NCBI RefSeq assembly: GCF_900116425.1
Contig: NZ_FPAS01000002.1
Span: 576,537 to 640,536, forward strand
Direction of reading: 5' to 3'
DNA: 64,000 nucleotides
Source of the DNA: Lishizhenia tianjinensis
Lineage (GTDB): Bacteria; Bacteroidota; Bacteroidia; Flavobacteriales_D; Crocinitomicaceae
Position 1 is the first letter of the stretch. Every line of letters starts with the position of its first letter. The notes under the pieces are model-generated. The model was given only the letters and a program-made list of their open reading frames with translations. It made no database searches and was not told the DNA's origin. Positions 19,838 to 60,424 of the stretch are shown piece by piece. The position numbers and the translations under genes were made by a program.

Positions 19838-19877
19838 AAAAATCCCCATCGCGTTTTACGTGGTGGGGATTTTTTTT
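19838..19877 (+). terminator. terminator, copy A of a repeated 17-bp-stem hairpin
   Basis: A 17-bp stem starting AAAAATCCCCATCGCGT, three-base loop TTT, 3' arm ACGTGGTGGGG plus T residues, with G-U pairs tolerated in the inner part. Near-identical hairpins occur at 24777-24813 and 29271-29310. Each is followed by the same series of low-complexity repeats. Confidence 0.85.
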
Positions 19878-19957
19878 GATTTAAAAATTTAATGATTTAA
19901 AAATTTAATGATTTAAAAATTTAATGATTTAAAAATTTAATGATTTAAAAATTTAAA
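19878..19957. repeat. five tandem copies of a 16-bp AT-rich unit
   Basis: Unit GATTTAAAAATTTAAT starting at 19878, 19894, 19910, 19926 and 19942; the last copy differs in its final base. There are no spacers, so it is not a CRISPR array. It is the second module of composite repeat copy A. The next 27 bases (19958-19984) hold the conserved core TTGCGGAATGAACTATTTAT shared with copy B. Confidence 0.9.
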
Positions 19958-19984
19958 GATTGCGGAATGAACTATTTATAATTT

Positions 19985-20064
19985 GAATCCTTGAATCCTT
20001 GAATCCTTGAATCCTTGAATCCTTGAATCCTTGAATCCTTGAATCCTTGAATTCTTGAATTGAG
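19985..20064. repeat. 8-bp tandem array (GAATCCTT), eight perfect and two degenerate copies
   Basis: Units start every 8 bases from 19985. Copies 1-8 are identical GAATCCTT; copies 9 and 10 are GAATTCTT and GAATTGAG. The same module occurs at 24915 (unit GAATCTTT) and 29408 (unit GAATCCTT) with different copy numbers. Confidence 0.9.
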
Positions 20065-20120
20065 GTTCTCGAGCAGCAGCGAAGTAGTGAGCTTAGCCGA
20101 ACTATCGAGAGATGAATCCT
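20065..20120. repeat. REP-like element, copy A
   Basis: Starts GTTCTCGAG and ends GATGAATCCT, with the shared core GAGCTTAGCCGAACTATCGA. TCTCGA at the left and TCGAGA at the right are inverted, so the element can fold back. A second copy lies at 24955-25010. It resembles dispersed REP-type palindromes. The remaining bases to 20234 hold nothing recognisable except a possible TATGTTTG box at 20147-20154. Confidence 0.7.
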
Positions 20121-20234
20121 TGAGTTAACCTTTACTTAAAACTGTTTATGTTTGCATAATGTTAAGTTTAATAATCGCTACCTAATTTCATAGCTATGTA
20201 AAAGAAGCTTAACTTCACTCTATCAAAGCCTCGG

Positions 20235-20267: not shown

Positions 20268-22841
20268 ATGCGTAAAATTTTACTTTTAGTAAGTGCTTTA
20301 ACATCGAGTTTAGCATTTTCACAAATTGAAATACTTCAAAGCAATCAATCTTATACTCAAGATTTTGATGCCTTGTCAAACTCTGGGGTAACCAATCATT
20401 ATTCGAGTTTGCCAGTAGGTTGGGTAGCCCTAGAAACGGGGAGTAGTGCCGACCAAATTTATAGAGCTTCAGATGGTTACTACTCTGGTGGTGATTTATA
20501 CAGTTATGGAACAGCGAATGATACAGATAGAGCGTTGGGAACTATTGGTAGTGGTTCTAATCCTCAGCTTTACTTTGCTTGTTATTTCGTAAACAAAACA
20601 AGTGATGTGCTTACCTCAGTAGATATTAGTTTTGATGCTGAATTATGGAGAGTAGGAAACCCAACACGTTCTACAGGAGCAGATACCTTACGTTTTGCCT
20701 ACAGTATAAATCCTACTGCCATTGATGATAATGCAGCATTTACCTATGAGCCTTCTTTGTTTTTTGTGAGTCCAGCAGACCCAGCAGGAACACCTAACAT
20801 AGAAGCTGATGGGAATTTAGCAGCAAACAGAGAAAATTTAAGTTTTACCTTAAATGTAAACATAGCACCCTTGGATACAATTTGGTTGCGTTGGAGAGAT
20901 GATAATTCAGCAAGTTTCGATGACGGTATGGGGGTAGATAACTTAAGTGTTCAGTTCGGTGCACAAGGTGGTGTAAATACAGCTTTGTTCAACGTACTTG
21001 GCGCTATGGATACCTACTATACGGAAGATTTCGATGGCATGGCAAGCGCTTATGGAGCTAATTCTGGATTTTCTACTTTACCATCAGGATGGTATGCACA
21101 TGAAGAAGGTGGGAACGCCAATCAAACTTACAATATTTCTTATGGAGAATTTGGAGGTGGAAACTTATACAGTTATGGAGATTCAGCTTCTACTGAGAGA
21201 GCTTTTGGATCTGTAGGAAGTGGAAGTTTGTACAAATCTCACCGCGGTGTAGCCTATATCAATACAACATCAGATGTGATAGAAAATGTAGAGGTAAACT
21301 TTACTGGAGAAATGTGGAGACAGGGTAGACCGGGGAGAACAACTGGTCCGGATACTTTGCATTTTTCTTATGCAGTAAATGCGGCTGGAATTGAAAACGG
21401 AGCTTACCAAGATTTTAGTTTATTGAACTTCTTCTCACCCGTTACAGATGGAATATTAAACACCCCTATGAATGGAAATGCCGCTGCGAATAAAACGGAT
21501 GTTTCTGGTGTGATCGGGAATTTGAACTTACAGCCCATGGATACCCTTTGGTTGAGATGGACAGATTACAACTCTGCAAGTTTTGATGATGGTTTAGCGG
21601 TAGATGATTTTTCAATTGCAGCCATAAGCACAGCAAGTATTTTGAGTGTAGAATTTTTAAACAGTTCTACAATTTTTAATGAAGAAGACGGTATCGTTCA
21701 GGTTCCTTTGGTGATACACAACAAGAACAACTTCTTAACGCAAGTAGGTGTAAGTATCGCAAATGCTGGAACAACGAATTTGATGAATGATGTAAACATC
21801 GTAGAGAGCTTGGTAACTTTCCCAACTACGGGTACAGATTCTATTGCTTATTTCCAGTTCAATATCTTAAACAGTGATCCTTTCGAAAACCAAGAATATT
21901 TTGTTTTAGAATTAGTGAATCCAACCAATGCCTTTTTAGGAAGCAATATCTACGATACTATTTTCATTGAGAACTACGAGTATCCCTTAGTGCCCATTGC
22001 AGATCTACAGGGTGAAGATGTAAACGGGGTGAGTGAAGTACTAGGTGCAAATGTTTTAATCGAAGGTATTGTGCACGGTATTAACTACAATTCTCTAGGC
22101 GGAATAGATTTCTACGTATTAGAGAATGGTAGTGGTTTGAACATCTACAGCATGGATGCAGACTTAAGTTACCAGCCTCAAGAAGGAGATGCTTTAAAGG
22201 TGTGGGGACAAATTTCTCAATTTAGAGGATTGACACGTTTGGAGAAGTTAGACTCTATCGAGCTAGTATCTACTCAAAATAATTTAGAGAACCCTCTTCA
22301 AGTAGAATTGCTTTCTGAAGCTACAGAAGGTCAATATTTAGAAATTGATTCTTTACAATTACTTCCAGCTATCGCTGTTTGGCCAGGTAACCAAGAAGTT
22401 TATGCGAAGAATTTAGAAACAGGAGATACACTTACATTATTTGTAGGATTTAATTCAGACCTCGTTGGAGAAGTAGCAACACAAGAAGTGTTTAAGGCCA
22501 TAGGTTTAGGTTCTCAATTTGCGAGTTCTACTTTGGTGCCTTTCCAAGATGGTTACCGCTTAATGTTGGTGAACAAAGCAAGTATGGGCTTCAGTGGAGT
22601 GGAAGTTGAAGCTTTGGCGAAACTTGTTATGTTCCCGAACCCAGCGCAAGATCAAGTTCAATTCAATGGTTTTGAAGGTGCAGCACAAGTAAGCATAGTG
22701 GCTTTAACAGGTAAAGTTGTTTACCAAGGAGAAGTACAGGCAAATGGGGTGATTAATCTTCAAGATTTAGCACCAGCAACTTATGTAGTGAAGGTAGTTA
22801 CGACAGAAGGAGTTTACACAAACACTTTAATCAAGCAATAA
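20268..22841 (+). CDS. multidomain T9SS-sorted secreted protein, two internal repeats
   Basis: 857 residues. Signal peptide at 1-18 (ends AFSQ). Two homologous modules of about 210 residues follow (about 20-235 and 245-460), each with YxxxFD, LPxGW, YSYG and LRW..NSASFDDG.VD segments, resembling lectin-like jelly-roll folds of secreted proteins. Next is a Calx-beta-like stretch (about 465-565), an OB-like DUF5689-type region (about 575-665, IEGIVHGINYNSLGGIDFYV) and a T9SS sorting domain at about 780-857 (KLVMFPNPAQDQVQF ... YVVKVVTTEG). No catalytic site was recognised. The PhoD gene starts 1 base after its stop, so the two are co-expressed. It may bind substrate or act in attachment. Confidence 0.82.
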   Translation: MRKILLLVSALTSSLAFSQIEILQSNQSYTQDFDALSNSGVTNHYSSLPVGWVALETGSSADQIYRASDGYYSGGDLYSYGTANDTDRALGTIGSGSNPQLYFACYFVNKTSDVLTSVDISFDAELWRVGNPTRSTGADTLRFAYSINPTAIDDNAAFTYEPSLFFVSPADPAGTPNIEADGNLAANRENLSFTLNVNIAPLDTIWLRWRDDNSASFDDGMGVDNLSVQFGAQGGVNTALFNVLGAMDTYYTEDFDGMASAYGANSGFSTLPSGWYAHEEGGNANQTYNISYGEFGGGNLYSYGDSASTERAFGSVGSGSLYKSHRGVAYINTTSDVIENVEVNFTGEMWRQGRPGRTTGPDTLHFSYAVNAAGIENGAYQDFSLLNFFSPVTDGILNTPMNGNAAANKTDVSGVIGNLNLQPMDTLWLRWTDYNSASFDDGLAVDDFSIAAISTASILSVEFLNSSTIFNEEDGIVQVPLVIHNKNNFLTQVGVSIANAGTTNLMNDVNIVESLVTFPTTGTDSIAYFQFNILNSDPFENQEYFVLELVNPTNAFLGSNIYDTIFIENYEYPLVPIADLQGEDVNGVSEVLGANVLIEGIVHGINYNSLGGIDFYVLENGSGLNIYSMDADLSYQPQEGDALKVWGQISQFRGLTRLEKLDSIELVSTQNNLENPLQVELLSEATEGQYLEIDSLQLLPAIAVWPGNQEVYAKNLETGDTLTLFVGFNSDLVGEVATQEVFKAIGLGSQFASSTLVPFQDGYRLMLVNKASMGFSGVEVEALAKLVMFPNPAQDQVQFNGFEGAAQVSIVALTGKVVYQGEVQANGVINLQDLAPATYVVKVVTTEGVYTNTLIKQ

Positions 22842-22842
22842 G

Positions 22843-24756
22843 ATGAAAAGAGTTTTAACATTATTAAGTCTATTTATAGGCTGGACAACCTTGGCACAAA
22901 ATGGGTTTACCCATGGACCAGATCAAGGCATAGAACAAGAATATTTTGACGCCGACTTAGCACCTTTTTATCATGGTGTGGCTTCTGGAGATCCTTTGGA
23001 AGACAGGGTGATTATCTGGACGCGTGTTACTCCTGAGCACGATACTTTGATTCCTGTAAAATGGGTAGTAGCCCTAGATACTGGCTTTCAAAACATCGTA
23101 GCTGAAGGAAATACAGCAACGGATTACACCAAAGATTATACGGTGAAAGTGGATGTTACGGGGTTGACTCCGAACACAACATACTACTATTATTTCTCGG
23201 CATTAAACACCAACAGTGTGAGGGGAAGAACGCGCACCCTGCCGGGAAATAATACGGAACACGTACGTTTGGCTTTTGGTTCGTGTAGCAATTATCAAAT
23301 GGGCTATTTTAATTCTTACAAGCGTATTGCTGAGCGCAATGATCTAGATGCAGTTTTGCATTTGGGTGATTATTTCTACGAGTACGCCATCTATGGGTAT
23401 GGTTATACGGTAGAGGTTGGACGTGAACACAGACCTTTGCATGAAATCGTTACTTTGGATGATTACAGAATTAGACACAACTTCTACAAGTTAGATCCTG
23501 ACTTAAGAGCAGCACACCAACAACATCCTTTCATTTGTATATGGGACGATCATGAAATAACCAACAATACTTATGAAGATGGAGCAGCCAATCACCAAGA
23601 AGAAACAGAGGGTGATTTTCAAACGCGTAAGGAAAGCGCAATACGTGCGTATTTAGAGTGGATGCCTATACGTCACCAACCTTTTAATGGCGACCCTAAA
23701 ATTTACCGTTCTTTTGCTTTCGGTGATTTGATGGATTTGTTCATGGTGGATACGCGAGTAGAAGGTAGACATGTACAAGCGGCAAATGCGCAAGATACTT
23801 TGTTCAATGACAGCACGCGTTTGTTGTTAGGCGATGTACAACGTAACTGGTTGTTCGATAACATGGACAATTCAAATGCAACCTGGCGAGTGATAGGGAA
23901 TCAGATTATGATTTCTGAAACAGGAGAGAACGATCCGGATATGGATGCTTGGACTGGTTATCCTTATGAACGTGGATTGGTGGTAGACAAATTAATGTCT
24001 TACGCAGATAAAAACAACGTGGTTCTAACCGGAGATACACACAGAAGTTGGGCCTTTGATTTAGCTAAACATCCTTTCGATACAGCAAGCTACCAACCCT
24101 TAACCGGACAAGGTACTTTTGGAGTTGAATTGGGTGCGCCAAGTTTGGCATCTCCGAATAGAAACGAGAGTAATCCTGGAACGAGTCAAGAACCAGACAG
24201 ACAAGCACTCTATGTGGAAAACCCACAATTGCGCTATGTAGATTTAGATAACCATGGATATGTAATTTTGGATATTACCAATTACAAACTACAAGCAGAT
24301 TACTTCTACACGGATACAAAAATGCCTTCTATGAAGGATAGTTTGGGCAAAAGTTTATTCACTTATGCGAATGAAGGATATTTACAAGAGGCTTTATCTG
24401 CTGCAACGGGTAAAGAAGTTCAAGAGATTCCTGCACCATCTTACATTCTTCCATATGAGGAGGGTGAGGTTGATAATTTAGGAGTGAATACATCTTCTAC
24501 TTTCTTATTAAGTGGTGTATATCCAAACCCTTCTAACGGACAGTTTTTCATAGGGTTTACCTCTAATCAGGATGAGATTTTATACCTAGAGGTGATAGGA
24601 GTAGATGGAAAACGTTTGATGGATAAAGTATTGCAAGTCAAAAAAGGAAACCAAAAAATTGCACTTCAGTTGCAAGATGTAACTTCTGGAATCTATGTAT
24701 TGAACCTTACAACGCGTAATGGAGATACATATTCTAGAAGAATAGCGATTCGCTAA
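22843..24756 (+). CDS. PhoD-family alkaline phosphatase with T9SS sorting domain
   Basis: 637 residues. Signal peptide at 1-18 (ends TLAQ); fibronectin-like N-terminal PhoD domain at about 40-135 (YHGVASGDPLEDRVIIWTRVTP); metallophosphatase core at about 145-480, with FGSCSNYQ, LHLGDYFYEY, CIWDDHEITNNTYEDGA, and GDTHRSWAFD supplying metal ligands; and a T9SS domain at about 560-637 (VYPNPSNGQFFIGF). PhoD enzymes are phosphodiesterases/monoesterases that use calcium and iron and release phosphate outside the cell. It follows the 857-residue secreted protein by 1 base. All expected metal-binding segments are present. Confidence 0.92.
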   Translation: MKRVLTLLSLFIGWTTLAQNGFTHGPDQGIEQEYFDADLAPFYHGVASGDPLEDRVIIWTRVTPEHDTLIPVKWVVALDTGFQNIVAEGNTATDYTKDYTVKVDVTGLTPNTTYYYYFSALNTNSVRGRTRTLPGNNTEHVRLAFGSCSNYQMGYFNSYKRIAERNDLDAVLHLGDYFYEYAIYGYGYTVEVGREHRPLHEIVTLDDYRIRHNFYKLDPDLRAAHQQHPFICIWDDHEITNNTYEDGAANHQEETEGDFQTRKESAIRAYLEWMPIRHQPFNGDPKIYRSFAFGDLMDLFMVDTRVEGRHVQAANAQDTLFNDSTRLLLGDVQRNWLFDNMDNSNATWRVIGNQIMISETGENDPDMDAWTGYPYERGLVVDKLMSYADKNNVVLTGDTHRSWAFDLAKHPFDTASYQPLTGQGTFGVELGAPSLASPNRNESNPGTSQEPDRQALYVENPQLRYVDLDNHGYVILDITNYKLQADYFYTDTKMPSMKDSLGKSLFTYANEGYLQEALSAATGKEVQEIPAPSYILPYEEGEVDNLGVNTSSTFLLSGVYPNPSNGQFFIGFTSNQDEILYLEVIGVDGKRLMDKVLQVKKGNQKIALQLQDVTSGIYVLNLTTRNGDTYSRRIAIR

Positions 24757-24776: not shown

Positions 24777-24813
24777 AAAATCCCCATCGCGTTTAACGTG
24801 GTGGGGATTTTTT
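24777..24813 (+). terminator. terminator, copy B of the repeated hairpin
   Basis: Same 17-bp-type stem as at 19838 (AAAATCCCCATCGCGT, loop TTA, ACGTGGTGGGGATTTT) with a T run. It ends the secreted-protein/PhoD transcript 20 bases after the stop codon. Confidence 0.85.
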
Positions 24814-25057
24814 GATTTAACAATTTAAAGATTCAACAAATTGAATATTCAACAATTCAATAATTTAAAAATTCAATGAATTATTAATTGCGGAATAAAC
24901 GATTTGTATAATTTGAATCTTTGAATCTTTGAATCTTTGAATCTTTGAATCCGAGTTCTCGAGGGAGAGCGCTGTGGTGAGCTTAGTCGAACTATCGAAA
25001 GATGAATCCTCTAACTTTCTAAATATCTAACCGTCTAAAAGTCTAACTGTCTAGGTA
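24814..25057. repeat. composite intergenic repeat, copy B
   Basis: Modules appear in the same order as after trigger factor. First comes an AT-rich run of GATTTAACAATTTAAA-like words (24814-24887). Then the core TTGCGGAATAAAC...TATAATTT (24888-24914), an 8-bp array with unit GAATCTTT (four copies plus one variant from 24915), the REP-like element (24955-25010), and a tail of TCTAAC/GTCTAA words (25011-25057). The array units are homogenised to a different sequence than in copy A. Confidence 0.8.
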
Positions 25058-25788: not shown

Positions 25789-25844
25789 AGTCTAAATGTC
25801 TTAGGATCCAAACGACTAAACGTCTAAAAATCTAACTATCTCTC
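25789..25844. repeat. TCTAAA/TCTAAC word cluster
   Basis: Degenerate, roughly 10-base periodic words (AGTCTAAATG, CGTCTAAAAA, TCTAACTATC). The same kind of words forms the tail of composite repeat copies B (25011-25057) and C (29437-29463), and a stand-alone cluster at 60381-60424. Confidence 0.6.
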
Positions 25845-29270: not shown

Positions 29271-29310
29271 AAAAATCCCCATTGCGTGAAGACGTGGTGG
29301 GGATTTTTTT
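29271..29310 (+). terminator. terminator, copy C of the repeated hairpin
   Basis: Stem AAAAATCCCCATTGCGT pairs over 17 positions with ACGTGGTGGGGATTTTT through a GAAG tetraloop. Compared with copies A and B, one C-G pair has become U-G and the loop is different, yet pairing is kept. Confidence 0.85.
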
Positions 29311-29470
29311 GATTCAACAATTCAACAATTTGAAGATTTGAGGGATTTGAAATGATTTGAAATTTTGTAGGGTATTAAAATAATTTTTTGAACTATTTAT
29401 ATAATTTGAATCCTTGAATCCTTGAATCCTTGAATCGTCTAGCTATCCAGAAATCTAACCTTATCTTTCT
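29311..29470. repeat. composite intergenic repeat, copy C (no REP-like module)
   Basis: After the terminator come AT-rich words (GATTCAACAATTCAACAATT and relatives, 29311-29380), the core GAACTATTTATATAATTT (to 29407), three GAATCCTT units plus one variant from 29408, and the tail GTCTAGCTATCCAGAAATCT. The REP-like module present in A and B is missing. From 29471 to 29581 only a weak CAATTTTG promoter-like box at 29550-29557 is seen. Confidence 0.75.
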
Positions 29471-29581: not shown

Positions 29582-31777
29582 ATGTTTAAAAAAATTACAC
29601 AATTCTGTTTTGTAGCTATGGTTGGTACTGTAGCAGCACAACAAAGCTCTGTAGTGTTTCCAGCAGAAAGCACTTGGAGTTATTCAGATGATGGATCTGA
29701 TTTGGGTTCAACTTGGACTGCTCCTTCTTTTAATGATGGCGCTTGGGCATCAGGTCAGGCACAATTAGGATATGGAGATGGTGATGAAACTACGACTTTA
29801 AGCTATGGTCCTGATGCACAAAATAAGTTCCAAACCACTTACTTTAGAGCTGACTTTTCAGTATCAGCTTTACCAACAGTAGATGAGGAGTTGGTATTGT
29901 TCTTAAAAAGAGATGACGGGGCTATCGTTTACATCAATGGAACGGAAGTTCACCGTGTAAACATGCCTTCTGGAGCAGTAGATTACACAACTTACGCCAA
30001 TGGAACTGTAGGTGGGAGTGATGAAAGTACTTACTTCGAAACGGTAATAGATGCAACGAGCTTGGTTGTAGGAAACAATGTTATTGCTGTTGAGATTCAC
30101 CAAGCTGATCCTTCTAGTTCTGATATTTCTTTCGATTTAGAATTGGCTTATAGAGAAATTATTCCTTTGGTTGCACCTGTAGATTGTAGCGACGAGTTGG
30201 ATGCTTTACACATCTCGAAGTTCACGTCGGTTATGCCGAGTGTACAACCAGATTCGTTAAGAATCCCATCAACGCACACTTTCCAAATGTTAATTCAACA
30301 CGGAGAGCCTTACACAGATGCTACGCAAGGGAACACAGGTGACAACTTTGACTTTACAGGGTATGTTCCTATCAACGGATCTAGTCACCAAGGTTACTTG
30401 TCTTTAAACCACGAAATGGGATCTTTCCCAGCAGCAGGGGTTTCTATGATGGATATTCAATTCGATTCAACTTTACACATTTGGAACATCACCAACAACC
30501 AACCGGTTGATTTTGCTCCCGTACAAGGTACAGGACGTAACTGTTCTGGTGCTGTAACACCATGGGGAACAATTATCACAGCAGAAGAAACATTACCAAC
30601 AAGTGATGCAAATGGAGATGGATACCAAGACATAGGATGGTTGGTAGAAATCGATCCAGCTACAGCTTCAGTAGTTGACCATGATGGTGACGGAGCGCCT
30701 GAGAAATTATTTAAGTTGGGAAGAATGTCACACGAAAACTGTGTGGTTTCAGAAGACAGAAAAACAGTTTACTTCGGTAATGACCAAAACCCAGGTTACG
30801 TATTTAAGTTTGTTGCTGATGTTGAAGAAGATCTATCAGCAGGTACTTTATATGTTTTAAAATTAGACGGACCATTAGACAATGCAACTACAGGAACATG
30901 GGTTGGGATTCCTAACTTTACTCCAACAGATTGTAACAATGTTTTATCTTACGCTTCAGCGGTAGGAGGAACGAACTTTGACAAAATTGAAGACGTTGAA
31001 ATCAACCCAGTTTCAGGTCAGATTTACTTCACATCTAAATCTTCTTCTCGAGTTTACAGATTTACAGACAATGGATCTACAGTTGCAGATGCTATGGTGT
31101 TTGTAGGGAATTCAGATTGGATTTATGTAATCGAAACTGCTGACGGATTAGTAGAAGAGCAGTGGAGAGGTGGAGTAGATAACTTAACTTTCGACGACGA
31201 AGGAAACTTATACGTAATTCAAGATGGTGGTCGTAACCACATTTGGATGGTTCCAACATGTCACACACAAACCAACCCAGCGGTTAAAATGTTTGCGGTA
31301 ACGCCAGCGGGATGTGAGCCAACAGGTATGACTTTCTCTCCTGACTTTAAATTCATGTTCGTTTCTATGCAGCACCCATCTAGTGGAAACACTACACAGA
31401 TGATAGATGCAACGGGAACGCCAGTTGTATTTGACAAAGAATCTTGTATCGTAATTGCGAGAAAAGAATACTTAGGTCCGGATGCAATGTACATTTCTCC
31501 AGCGAGTGTTGAAAATCAAGCGCCAGTGGAAGAGCCTGTGATTTTCCCTAATCCAACAAGCGGAAATGTTACTATTCAAATCAATGCAAATGCACAAGGT
31601 GCTGCTGTAGTTCATGTGTACAACATGGTGGGATCTAACGTAAGAATTTTATCTCAAGGTTTGAATGCTGGAACAAACAACATCAATGTAGAAATGGGGA
31701 ATTTACCATCTGGAGTTTACACAGCTGTAGTAACGGTAGGTAACCAAAGATTTACGCAGAAAATAGTAAAACGTTAA
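29582..31777 (+). CDS. PhoX-family (DUF839) alkaline phosphatase-like protein with T9SS sorting domain
   Basis: 731 residues. Signal peptide at about 1-19 (ends VAAQ). An N-terminal beta-sandwich at about 25-190 (WTAPSFNDGAWASGQAQLGYG) is often found on secreted hydrolases. The PhoX-like core runs from about 200 to 630: LSLNHEMG, NCSGAVTPWGTIITAEET, KLGRMSHENCVV, YFGNDQNPGYVFKFV, and DKIEDVEINP are family landmarks. The T9SS domain is at about 655-731 (VIFPNPTSGNVTIQ). PhoX enzymes are calcium/iron alkaline phosphatases exported to scavenge phosphate, though some DUF839 proteins have other roles. It heads a tight operon with an LRR protein and a di-haem peroxidase. Confidence 0.85.
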   Translation: MFKKITQFCFVAMVGTVAAQQSSVVFPAESTWSYSDDGSDLGSTWTAPSFNDGAWASGQAQLGYGDGDETTTLSYGPDAQNKFQTTYFRADFSVSALPTVDEELVLFLKRDDGAIVYINGTEVHRVNMPSGAVDYTTYANGTVGGSDESTYFETVIDATSLVVGNNVIAVEIHQADPSSSDISFDLELAYREIIPLVAPVDCSDELDALHISKFTSVMPSVQPDSLRIPSTHTFQMLIQHGEPYTDATQGNTGDNFDFTGYVPINGSSHQGYLSLNHEMGSFPAAGVSMMDIQFDSTLHIWNITNNQPVDFAPVQGTGRNCSGAVTPWGTIITAEETLPTSDANGDGYQDIGWLVEIDPATASVVDHDGDGAPEKLFKLGRMSHENCVVSEDRKTVYFGNDQNPGYVFKFVADVEEDLSAGTLYVLKLDGPLDNATTGTWVGIPNFTPTDCNNVLSYASAVGGTNFDKIEDVEINPVSGQIYFTSKSSSRVYRFTDNGSTVADAMVFVGNSDWIYVIETADGLVEEQWRGGVDNLTFDDEGNLYVIQDGGRNHIWMVPTCHTQTNPAVKMFAVTPAGCEPTGMTFSPDFKFMFVSMQHPSSGNTTQMIDATGTPVVFDKESCIVIARKEYLGPDAMYISPASVENQAPVEEPVIFPNPTSGNVTIQINANAQGAAVVHVYNMVGSNVRILSQGLNAGTNNINVEMGNLPSGVYTAVVTVGNQRFTQKIVKR

Positions 31778-60380: not shown

Positions 60381-60424
60381 CTAACCCTCTAAAAATCTAA
60401 CTCTCTAAAAGTCTAACAGTCTAA
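60381..60424. repeat. TCTAAC/TCTAAA word cluster upstream of guaA
   Basis: Words CTAACCCTCT, AAAAATCTAAC, TCTCTAAAAG, TCTAACAGTC follow at about 10-base spacing. They match the tail of composite repeats B and C and the cluster at 25789-25844, and lie between the purC terminator and the guaA promoter. Confidence 0.6.

Follow-up and report, generated by a model that had tools for sequence, protein, structure and literature searches.

Three intergenic regions of the Lishizhenia tianjinensis genome are probably (at a probability of roughly 0.7) paralogous copies of one gene-end spacer, composed of a terminator and of sequence from the short-repeat families of this genome, that was copied locally and did not move by itself. 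The copies, here called cassettes, lie in a window of 64,000 bp, the whole stretch of DNA that was analyzed, which corresponds to C8:576537-640536 (C8, contig NZ_FPAS01000002.1) of the 3.56 Mb genome (3,564,284 bases in 13 contigs). The closest relatives of the tig product (trigger factor) of the window are MAGs labelled Flavobacteriales, Bacteroidetes and Crocinitomicaceae (59-64% identity). Copy 1 is located after tig, copy 2 after the pair of a T9SS-tail gene and PhoD, and copy 3 after serS-RidA-TPR and before PhoX. The TPR match of the TPR-like gene upstream of copy 3 is below the Pfam cut-off. PhoD (before copy 2) and PhoX (after copy 3) are both T9SS-tailed phosphatase genes. The DNA that separates tig from an epimerase gene holds the T9SS-PhoD operon, with copy 1 on one side of it and copy 2 on the other, and a DUF5684 gene. 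PhoX with its T9SS tail (window 29582-31777) had no more than partial or tail-only matches in nine related genomes, those in genomes G005 and G026 being to the T9SS tail only, which suggests that PhoX may be an accessory or acquired gene.

The regions 19838-20127, 24777-25057 and 29271-29470 were all three found to read as related in the way the initial annotation described. The same modules in the same order, as proposed there, are present in all three copies for the hairpin, the reverse-strand words (RATTYRAN), a core of about 28 nt and the (TTGAATCY)n array (Table 1). This does not extend to the palindrome, which follows the array in copies 1 and 2 and is missing from copy 3, or to the TCTAAC tail, which copy 1 lacks and copy 3 shows weakly, copy 2 alone having a clear one. 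The cassette core ends in TATAATTTGAATC, and the array after it is built of TTGAATCC or TTGAATCT.

Table 1. Features of the three cassettes and of the operon between copies 1 and 2 (window positions)
Feature	Position	Strand	Remark
Copy 1, intrinsic terminator (putative)	19838..19874	+	starts 18 nt past tig stop codon
Copy 1, reverse-strand octamer/16-mer words (TGATTTAAAAATTTAA)n	19877..19961	-	
Copy 1, core GCGGAATGAACTATTTATAATTTGAATC	19962..19989	+	2 nt shorter than in copy 2
Copy 1, (TTGAATCC)n array	19983..20060	+	9.8 units
Copy 1, palindrome GGTTCTCGAG..CTATCGAGAGATGAATCCT	20064..20120	+	
T9SS-tail protein and PhoD operon	20268..24756	+	flanked by copies 1 and 2; not between tig and epimerase gene in four relatives' loci
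Copy 2, intrinsic terminator (putative)	24777..24813	+	starts 21 nt past PhoD stop codon
Copy 2, reverse-strand octamer words	24814..24889	-	
Copy 2, core GCGGAATAAACGATTTGTATAATTTGAATC	24890..24919	+	
Copy 2, (TTTGAATC)5 array	24912..24951	+	
Copy 2, palindrome GTTCTCGAGG..CTATCGAAAGATGAATCCT	24955..25010	+	
Copy 2, tail	25010..25053	+	B-type octamers RTCTARNN
Copy 3, intrinsic terminator (putative)	29271..29309	+	starts 22 nt past TPR-like gene stop codon
Copy 3, reverse-strand octamer words (ATTCAACA, ATTTGAAG)	29310..29365	-	
Copy 3, core TTGAACTATTTATATAATTTGAATC	29388..29412	+	
Copy 3, (TTGAATCC)n array	29406..29436	+	3.9 units; no palindrome after it

Each hairpin most likely ends the transcript of its upstream gene, a putative termination in vivo that is judged from anatomy. 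A stable, G+C-rich stem is followed by a T run just past the stop codon in all three copies, and the hairpins begin 18-22 nt past the stop codons, in agreement with the earlier placement of the cassettes at transcript 3' ends. The folding energies of copies 1, 2 and 3 are -24.7, -25.0 and -25.0 kcal/mol (z -6.1, -7.2 and -7.4), each hairpin folding better than all 200 shuffles of its sequence. On the minus strand, where G-U pairs of the stem become mismatches, the values are -17.6, -16.7 and -15.7. Since the G-U pairs work on the coding strand only, the sense of the hairpin is that of the upstream genes. The G+C-rich stem, the U tract and the strong coding-strand fold are shared with intrinsic (Rho-independent) terminators; unlike these, three neighboring cassettes share one hairpin sequence, while other C8 pairs share at most 17 nt. 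Among 104 terminator-like gene-end hairpins on C8 (5,356 pairs), the longest shared runs (19, 18 and 18 nt) are those of the three cassette pairs, by a small margin over the next-best pairs, which share 17 and 16 nt and are also neighbors (3.2 and 0.7 kb apart). Two other C8 hairpins share 13 nt (GGGATTTTTTTTG) with copy 1. Neighboring terminators sharing hairpin sequence of the AAAGGACAAAC..GTTCATCCTTT type were observed at C8:431929/432661, 435891/439172 and 491269/498534, one pair being inverted. An Rfam scan of the window at gathering thresholds matched only a tRNA, and the cassette was rejected as a known RNA family.

The initial annotation had regarded the cassettes as a dispersed element carrying its own terminator. 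The terminator is indeed part of the related copies at three non-homologous gene ends; dispersal and mobility were not borne out. A genome-wide search with a strict pattern of the hairpin and with the loose pattern AATCCCCA N4-30 TGGGGATTT found the same three places, exactly three matches, all inside 9.5 kb in this window, and arrays and palindromes were found at other intergenic sites without the hairpin. By these two outcomes, both named beforehand as decisive, the dispersed or mobile reading fails its own test. The hairpin pattern read backwards gave no match in the whole genome, which, together with the longest shared runs on C8, makes the likeness of the hairpins more than chance. Loci from other genomes, 2.33 Mb in all, contained no match to the cassette hairpin. 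The relatives searched included no other genome of the same genus. The core, searched genome-wide without gaps and with at most 3 mismatches, was found in copies 2 and 3 only; the core of copy 1 escaped this ungapped pattern by its 2-nt deletion, and the 2-nt-shorter form occurs once on C8, the contig searched for it. A dispersed element carrying a terminator was therefore rejected on copy number (three hairpins, and no core elsewhere in the ungapped search). The cassette is a local family of copies, neither dispersed nor self-mobile.

The observations are the shared module order, the three hairpin copies, the search for terminal inverted repeats that found none, the arrays and palindromes without the hairpin, and a gene order not seen in the relatives examined; from them we infer a copying event and a route as follows. 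The first part of the spacer would be the intrinsic terminator for tig, the T9SS-PhoD operon and the serS-RidA-TPR genes, and the rest would consist of octamer words in both orientations around the core, with the palindrome in two copies. The spacer, from hairpin to array, would have been copied over distances of at most 9.5 kb when the neighborhood was rearranged, segmental duplication or ectopic recombination being the most likely cause; Campbell-type insertion, tandem duplication with loss and ectopic gene conversion are candidate routes. The longest exact run is 18 nt between copies 1 and 2 and between copies 2 and 3, and 37 nt, mostly array, between copies 1 and 3. Since the copies have diverged (exact runs of at most 18 nt outside the array), a recombination origin is not directly readable from them.

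Intergenic sequence is habitually shared at short range in this genome, and the three cassettes fit this habit. With array words masked, the C8 intergenic regions yielded 75 similar pairs, 21 of them within 10 kb, compared to 2.8% of all pairs (binomial p ~1e-15, which ignores dependence, 12 of the 21 pairs coming from two clusters). One of the three cassette pairs (copy 1/copy 2) is among these 21. Two further C8 genes have direct repeats on either side, spaced 1.3 kb in one case and 2.5 kb in the other. A 241-bp intergenic segment (90% identity) is present on both sides of an ORF of about 650 aa at L211:14859-17598 (C8:454859-457598), and a 95-bp direct repeat (97%), whose likeness extends further by eye, surrounds the ORF C8:175817-176689 at L197:15541-16888 (C8:175541-176888). 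The motif GGGATAGAATTGCGGGTAGTCA, or close forms of it, occurs in both orientations at four intergenic sites within 10 kb (L204:2994-12717, C8:302994-312717). A non-coding unit of about 400 nt, in several repeats, was seen at L192:12278-16156 and L190:17887-18756 (C8 72.3-76.2 and 37.9-38.8 kb). It has a promoter-like part, TTGAC..TATCTTTG, which we take to be of the Bacteroidetes type, then about 110 nt, then a terminator AAAGCCTCG..CGGGGCTTTTT. The unit gave no Rfam match at gathering thresholds and is possibly a multicopy small RNA, for which it is a candidate.

The gene neighborhood was compared with that of relatives. In four loci tig is followed by the epimerase gene with no T9SS-PhoD operon between, at a distance of about 0.1 kb in two of them (L047, L130) and about 0.8 kb in the other two (L132, L135); this adjacency was seen in three of 29 kept relatives' loci (two of one genus) and in one of the five closest tig loci, some of which are truncated. 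The operon is present in G005 (PhoD 74%), on a contig other than that of tig, and in G010 (64%), and the PhoD orthologues of both carry their own, different terminators. In 29 of 29 serS loci of relatives, the other queried window genes were not detected within the available flanks, two of these loci being short. The 15 tig orthologues whose downstream DNA was inspected (of 22 loci, the remaining ones showing the upstream side) have other hairpins, so that no ancestral state is visible. The three cassette junctions were not seen in the relatives examined, which supports, and does not prove, a link to rearrangement; gene order around tig and serS is highly variable among relatives, and rearrangement at the junctions is thus weak evidence.

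A specific form of the local-copying explanation traces copies 1 and 2 to a single Campbell-type insertion next to tig, in which homologous recombination would have brought in a DNA segment with T9SS-PhoD and a copy of the spacer. What these direct repeats bracket is precisely the operon not present between tig and the epimerase gene at L047, L130, L132 and L135; the operon and tig are on separate contigs in G005, and two other C8 genes are similarly bracketed. This form is possible and somewhat doubtful: copy 3 requires a second event, the orthologues of PhoD in G005 and G010 end in different terminators, and the ancestral order is uncertain since tig-epimerase adjacency is found in few relatives. 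Far less probable is a small dispersed MITE-like mobile element with its own terminator and a low copy number, which we consider very unlikely. It would account for the same ordered modules at three non-homologous intergenic sites, each 3' of a stop codon, and a minisatellite-bearing MITE exists in Bacteroidota. BrickBuilt of Porphyromonas gingivalis is described as a MITE with a 23-nt minisatellite, 19 genomic copies and presence/absence among strains; both terminal inverted repeats are reported intact in 4 of the 19, and predicted terminators and/or polyadenylation sites flank 10 of the 19 (PMC4596501). To judge by that description, the cassette resembles BrickBuilt as an intergenic leader, tandem array and tail unit in Bacteroidota, and differs from it in that its copies are three and local and that terminal inverted repeats were not found. 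Many unlinked sites were not observed; the hairpin occurs in three copies only, within 9.5 kb and in one orientation. The longest exact inverted repeats at the ends given by the initial annotation are 6, 6 and 7 nt, the level of shuffled sequence (shuffled copy 3 pieces: mean 6.0, maximum 11). Inspection by eye of the 15-nt flanks of the cassettes showed no target duplication, and no Y1 transposase was found in the genome (PF01797, the family searched). The cassette thus fails the BrickBuilt/MITE tests that were run. Likewise very unlikely is the reading that hairpin and core are alike by selection and not by copying, for example as an attenuation or RNA-stability signal for phosphatase genes. 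PhoD before copy 2 and PhoX after copy 3, both T9SS-tailed phosphatase genes, would agree with it, as would a C-to-T change in the stem of copy 3 that keeps pairing as G-U. However, any terminator would be expected to conserve its stem, no match to the hairpin was found in the 2.33 Mb of other genomes' loci, and tig and serS-RidA-TPR carry the cassette too, which suggests no common regulon.

The words of the cassette arrays are part of a separate, genome-wide TTGAATYN family. Three successive units of TTGAATC(C/T) are found at nine genomic sites, the six outside the window all without the cassette hairpin. Arrays were surveyed on C8 (699,464 of 3,564,284 bases) with genes called by a longest-ORF script, and some regions counted as intergenic may hide short genes. 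The C8 intergenic regions (n=352) over the repeat threshold numbered 47 at lag 8, 24 at lag 7, 19 at lag 14 and 12 at lag 9, compared to 2 at lags 5 and 6 and 0 at lag 10. Exact lag-8 runs of at least 12 are intergenic in 19 cases on C8 and coding in none. With tandem units at many intergenic sites, the arrays qualify as an intergenic short-unit repeat family (SSR, 6-9 nt). The 63 lag-8 segments on C8 comprise 40 of TTGAATYN (A), 17 of RTCTARNN-like words (B) and 6 of neither. Among 281 A units, the share that keeps the base is 93-96% at positions 1 and 4-6, 86% at position 2 and 77% at position 3, frequencies that lean to TTGAAT since two TTGAAT matches are required for membership of class A. 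At position 7, 266 of the units have C or T, and position 8 is free, with all four bases. In a check that does not presuppose the core, ATTCAA/TTGAAT came out as the six best-kept positions in 30 of 49 longer segments.

Adjacent units carry the same free dinucleotide in 37 of 138 cases, compared to 22.3 (sd 4.0) in across-array shuffles (2 of 2,000 as high) and 31.9 (sd 3.3) in within-array shuffles (169 of 2,000 as high, no clear excess). When the cassette arrays and the arrays at C8:360891 and C8:383044, chosen after inspection, were left out, the count was 11 of 96, where across-array shuffles gave 12.8 (sd 3.2) and within-array shuffles 11.2 (sd 2.5). A few arrays, those of the cassettes included, look homogenized; neighbors in the other arrays are no more alike than chance. 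The lag-7 families are AGTGANA, GAATTAA-like and AATTTCN, and the lag-9 family is TCAAAT plus three variable bases. A run of 10 N at L193:528-537 (C8:80528-80537, approximate) is an apparent assembly gap inside a 9-mer array, (TCAAATCCC)n. Further B-type arrays (RTCTARNN) without the cassette hairpin are located at window positions 25791-25841 and 60381-60424.

Several roles and sources of the arrays were tried and not retained. A hairpin lies at most 170 nt away on the upstream side of 14 of the 40 A segments, compared to 5.8 (sd 2.2) under random placement; 5 of the 14 are cassettes, and a tie of arrays to terminators was set aside with 9 of 35 A segments near a hairpin once these were removed. 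A strand rule was not convincing (the coding strand carries TTGAAT in 15 of 21 co-directional regions; 6 plus and 7 minus in convergent and 5 and 1 in divergent ones). A universal stop-codon function of the words does not fit the 9-mer words. Phage origin was not retained either; a scan of viral contigs matched seven, six with arrays of a single dinucleotide and one (L324) with mixed CT/TT units.

Array and palindrome tend to co-occur genome-wide, and the hairpin is private to the three cassettes. The 20-nt half-site of the palindrome, with at most 3 mismatches, is found at seven genomic sites, a search that more diverged copies would escape. On visual inspection, A-type words lie near six of these sites (in the case of L043, loosely), and those near the remaining site, L046, are B-type; by the automatic measure the nearest array on C8 is 4.7 kb from this site. 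The palindromes are like REP/RAYT palindromes, as portrayed in PMC2817692 and others, in being small intergenic palindromic repeats at several sites, and unlike them in copy number, which is not high (seven sites), in the missing Y1 transposase and in RNA folding that does not exceed the shuffled level (z -0.96 and -0.13). The PF01797 search of the genome gave 0 matches, with controls positive in 5 of 14 genomes, and RAYT-driven palindromes were rejected for this family.

A pattern of four spaced TTGAAT hexamers has 87 matches in this genome. Among 58 relatives it has one match each in G005 and G021 and none in 56, and among 394 other Bacteroidota it is found in three genomes (1, 3 and 13 matches) and not in 391. 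The matches shown in other Bacteroidota are arrays of TT, of GA, or of GG with some GA. Periodicity in relatives was read from 20 stretches of seven genomes: G005, whose stretch was picked for its prior match, has TTGAATYN words and G033 has 7-mer words, and four of the seven have no lag-7 or lag-8 segment.

For the origin of the arrays, a neutral and a selected reading are both kept. Replication slippage followed by neutral mutation, with no function, is a serious possibility, if one we place somewhat below even odds. It would produce the few near-homogeneous arrays (19983-20060, C8:360891 and parts of C8:383044) and the excess of like neighbors over across-array shuffles when all arrays are counted, and slippage is the cause given for the abundant bacterial heptamer repeats in PMC4692102. 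That excess is due to the homogeneous arrays, however, and the hexamer positions are mostly kept (77-96%) while position 8 is free, the same hexamer being best kept where no core was presupposed. Slippage explains a few homogeneous arrays; the fixed hexamer and free dinucleotide elsewhere suggest selection or a generating process that preserves the hexamer. In its fullest form, the selected reading takes the TTGAATYN arrays as genome-wide tandem 8-bp putative sites, with the hexamer under selection, to which a lineage-specific DNA- or RNA-binding protein would bind cooperatively at intergenic positions; we consider this form rather improbable.

A literature search on TTGAATYN words, flavobacterial octamer repeats, Crocinitomicaceae intergenic tandem repeats and STRR heptanucleotides found nothing. 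Xanthomonas is reported to have heterogeneous intergenic heptamer repeats, (GGGAATC)n/(GGGANTN)n, in more than 180 patterns per genome (PMC4692102). As presented there, these share short units, a fixed core with free positions and many intergenic sites with the present arrays, which differ in being 8 nt long and A+T-rich, without G runs, and in having 7- and 9-nt word families alongside. TAACTGA direct repeats are described as exact heptamers of Beggiatoaceae, Cyanobacteria and five Bacteroidetes, which in the genome with the most of them lie mainly a short way 5' of start codons (PMC4679880). According to that account they are likewise lineage-sporadic, mostly intergenic, in many sets in some genomes and with stop codons in all frames of one strand, while the present octamers are degenerate and show no start-codon placement. 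The array family is best filed with the Xanthomonas heptamer and TAACTGA kinds, as a known kind of intergenic short-repeat family.

The TTGAATYN family is abundant in one genome and matched in 3 of 394 others of the phylum sampled. The fixed hexamer, the free dinucleotide and the unlike neighbors in most arrays are not predicted by plain slippage. If the binding-site reading is true, the cassettes would be gene ends that gained divergent site blocks around a core. The cassette itself is a local oddity, and suggests that neighboring transcription units can acquire copies of one another's gene-end spacers together with the terminator.
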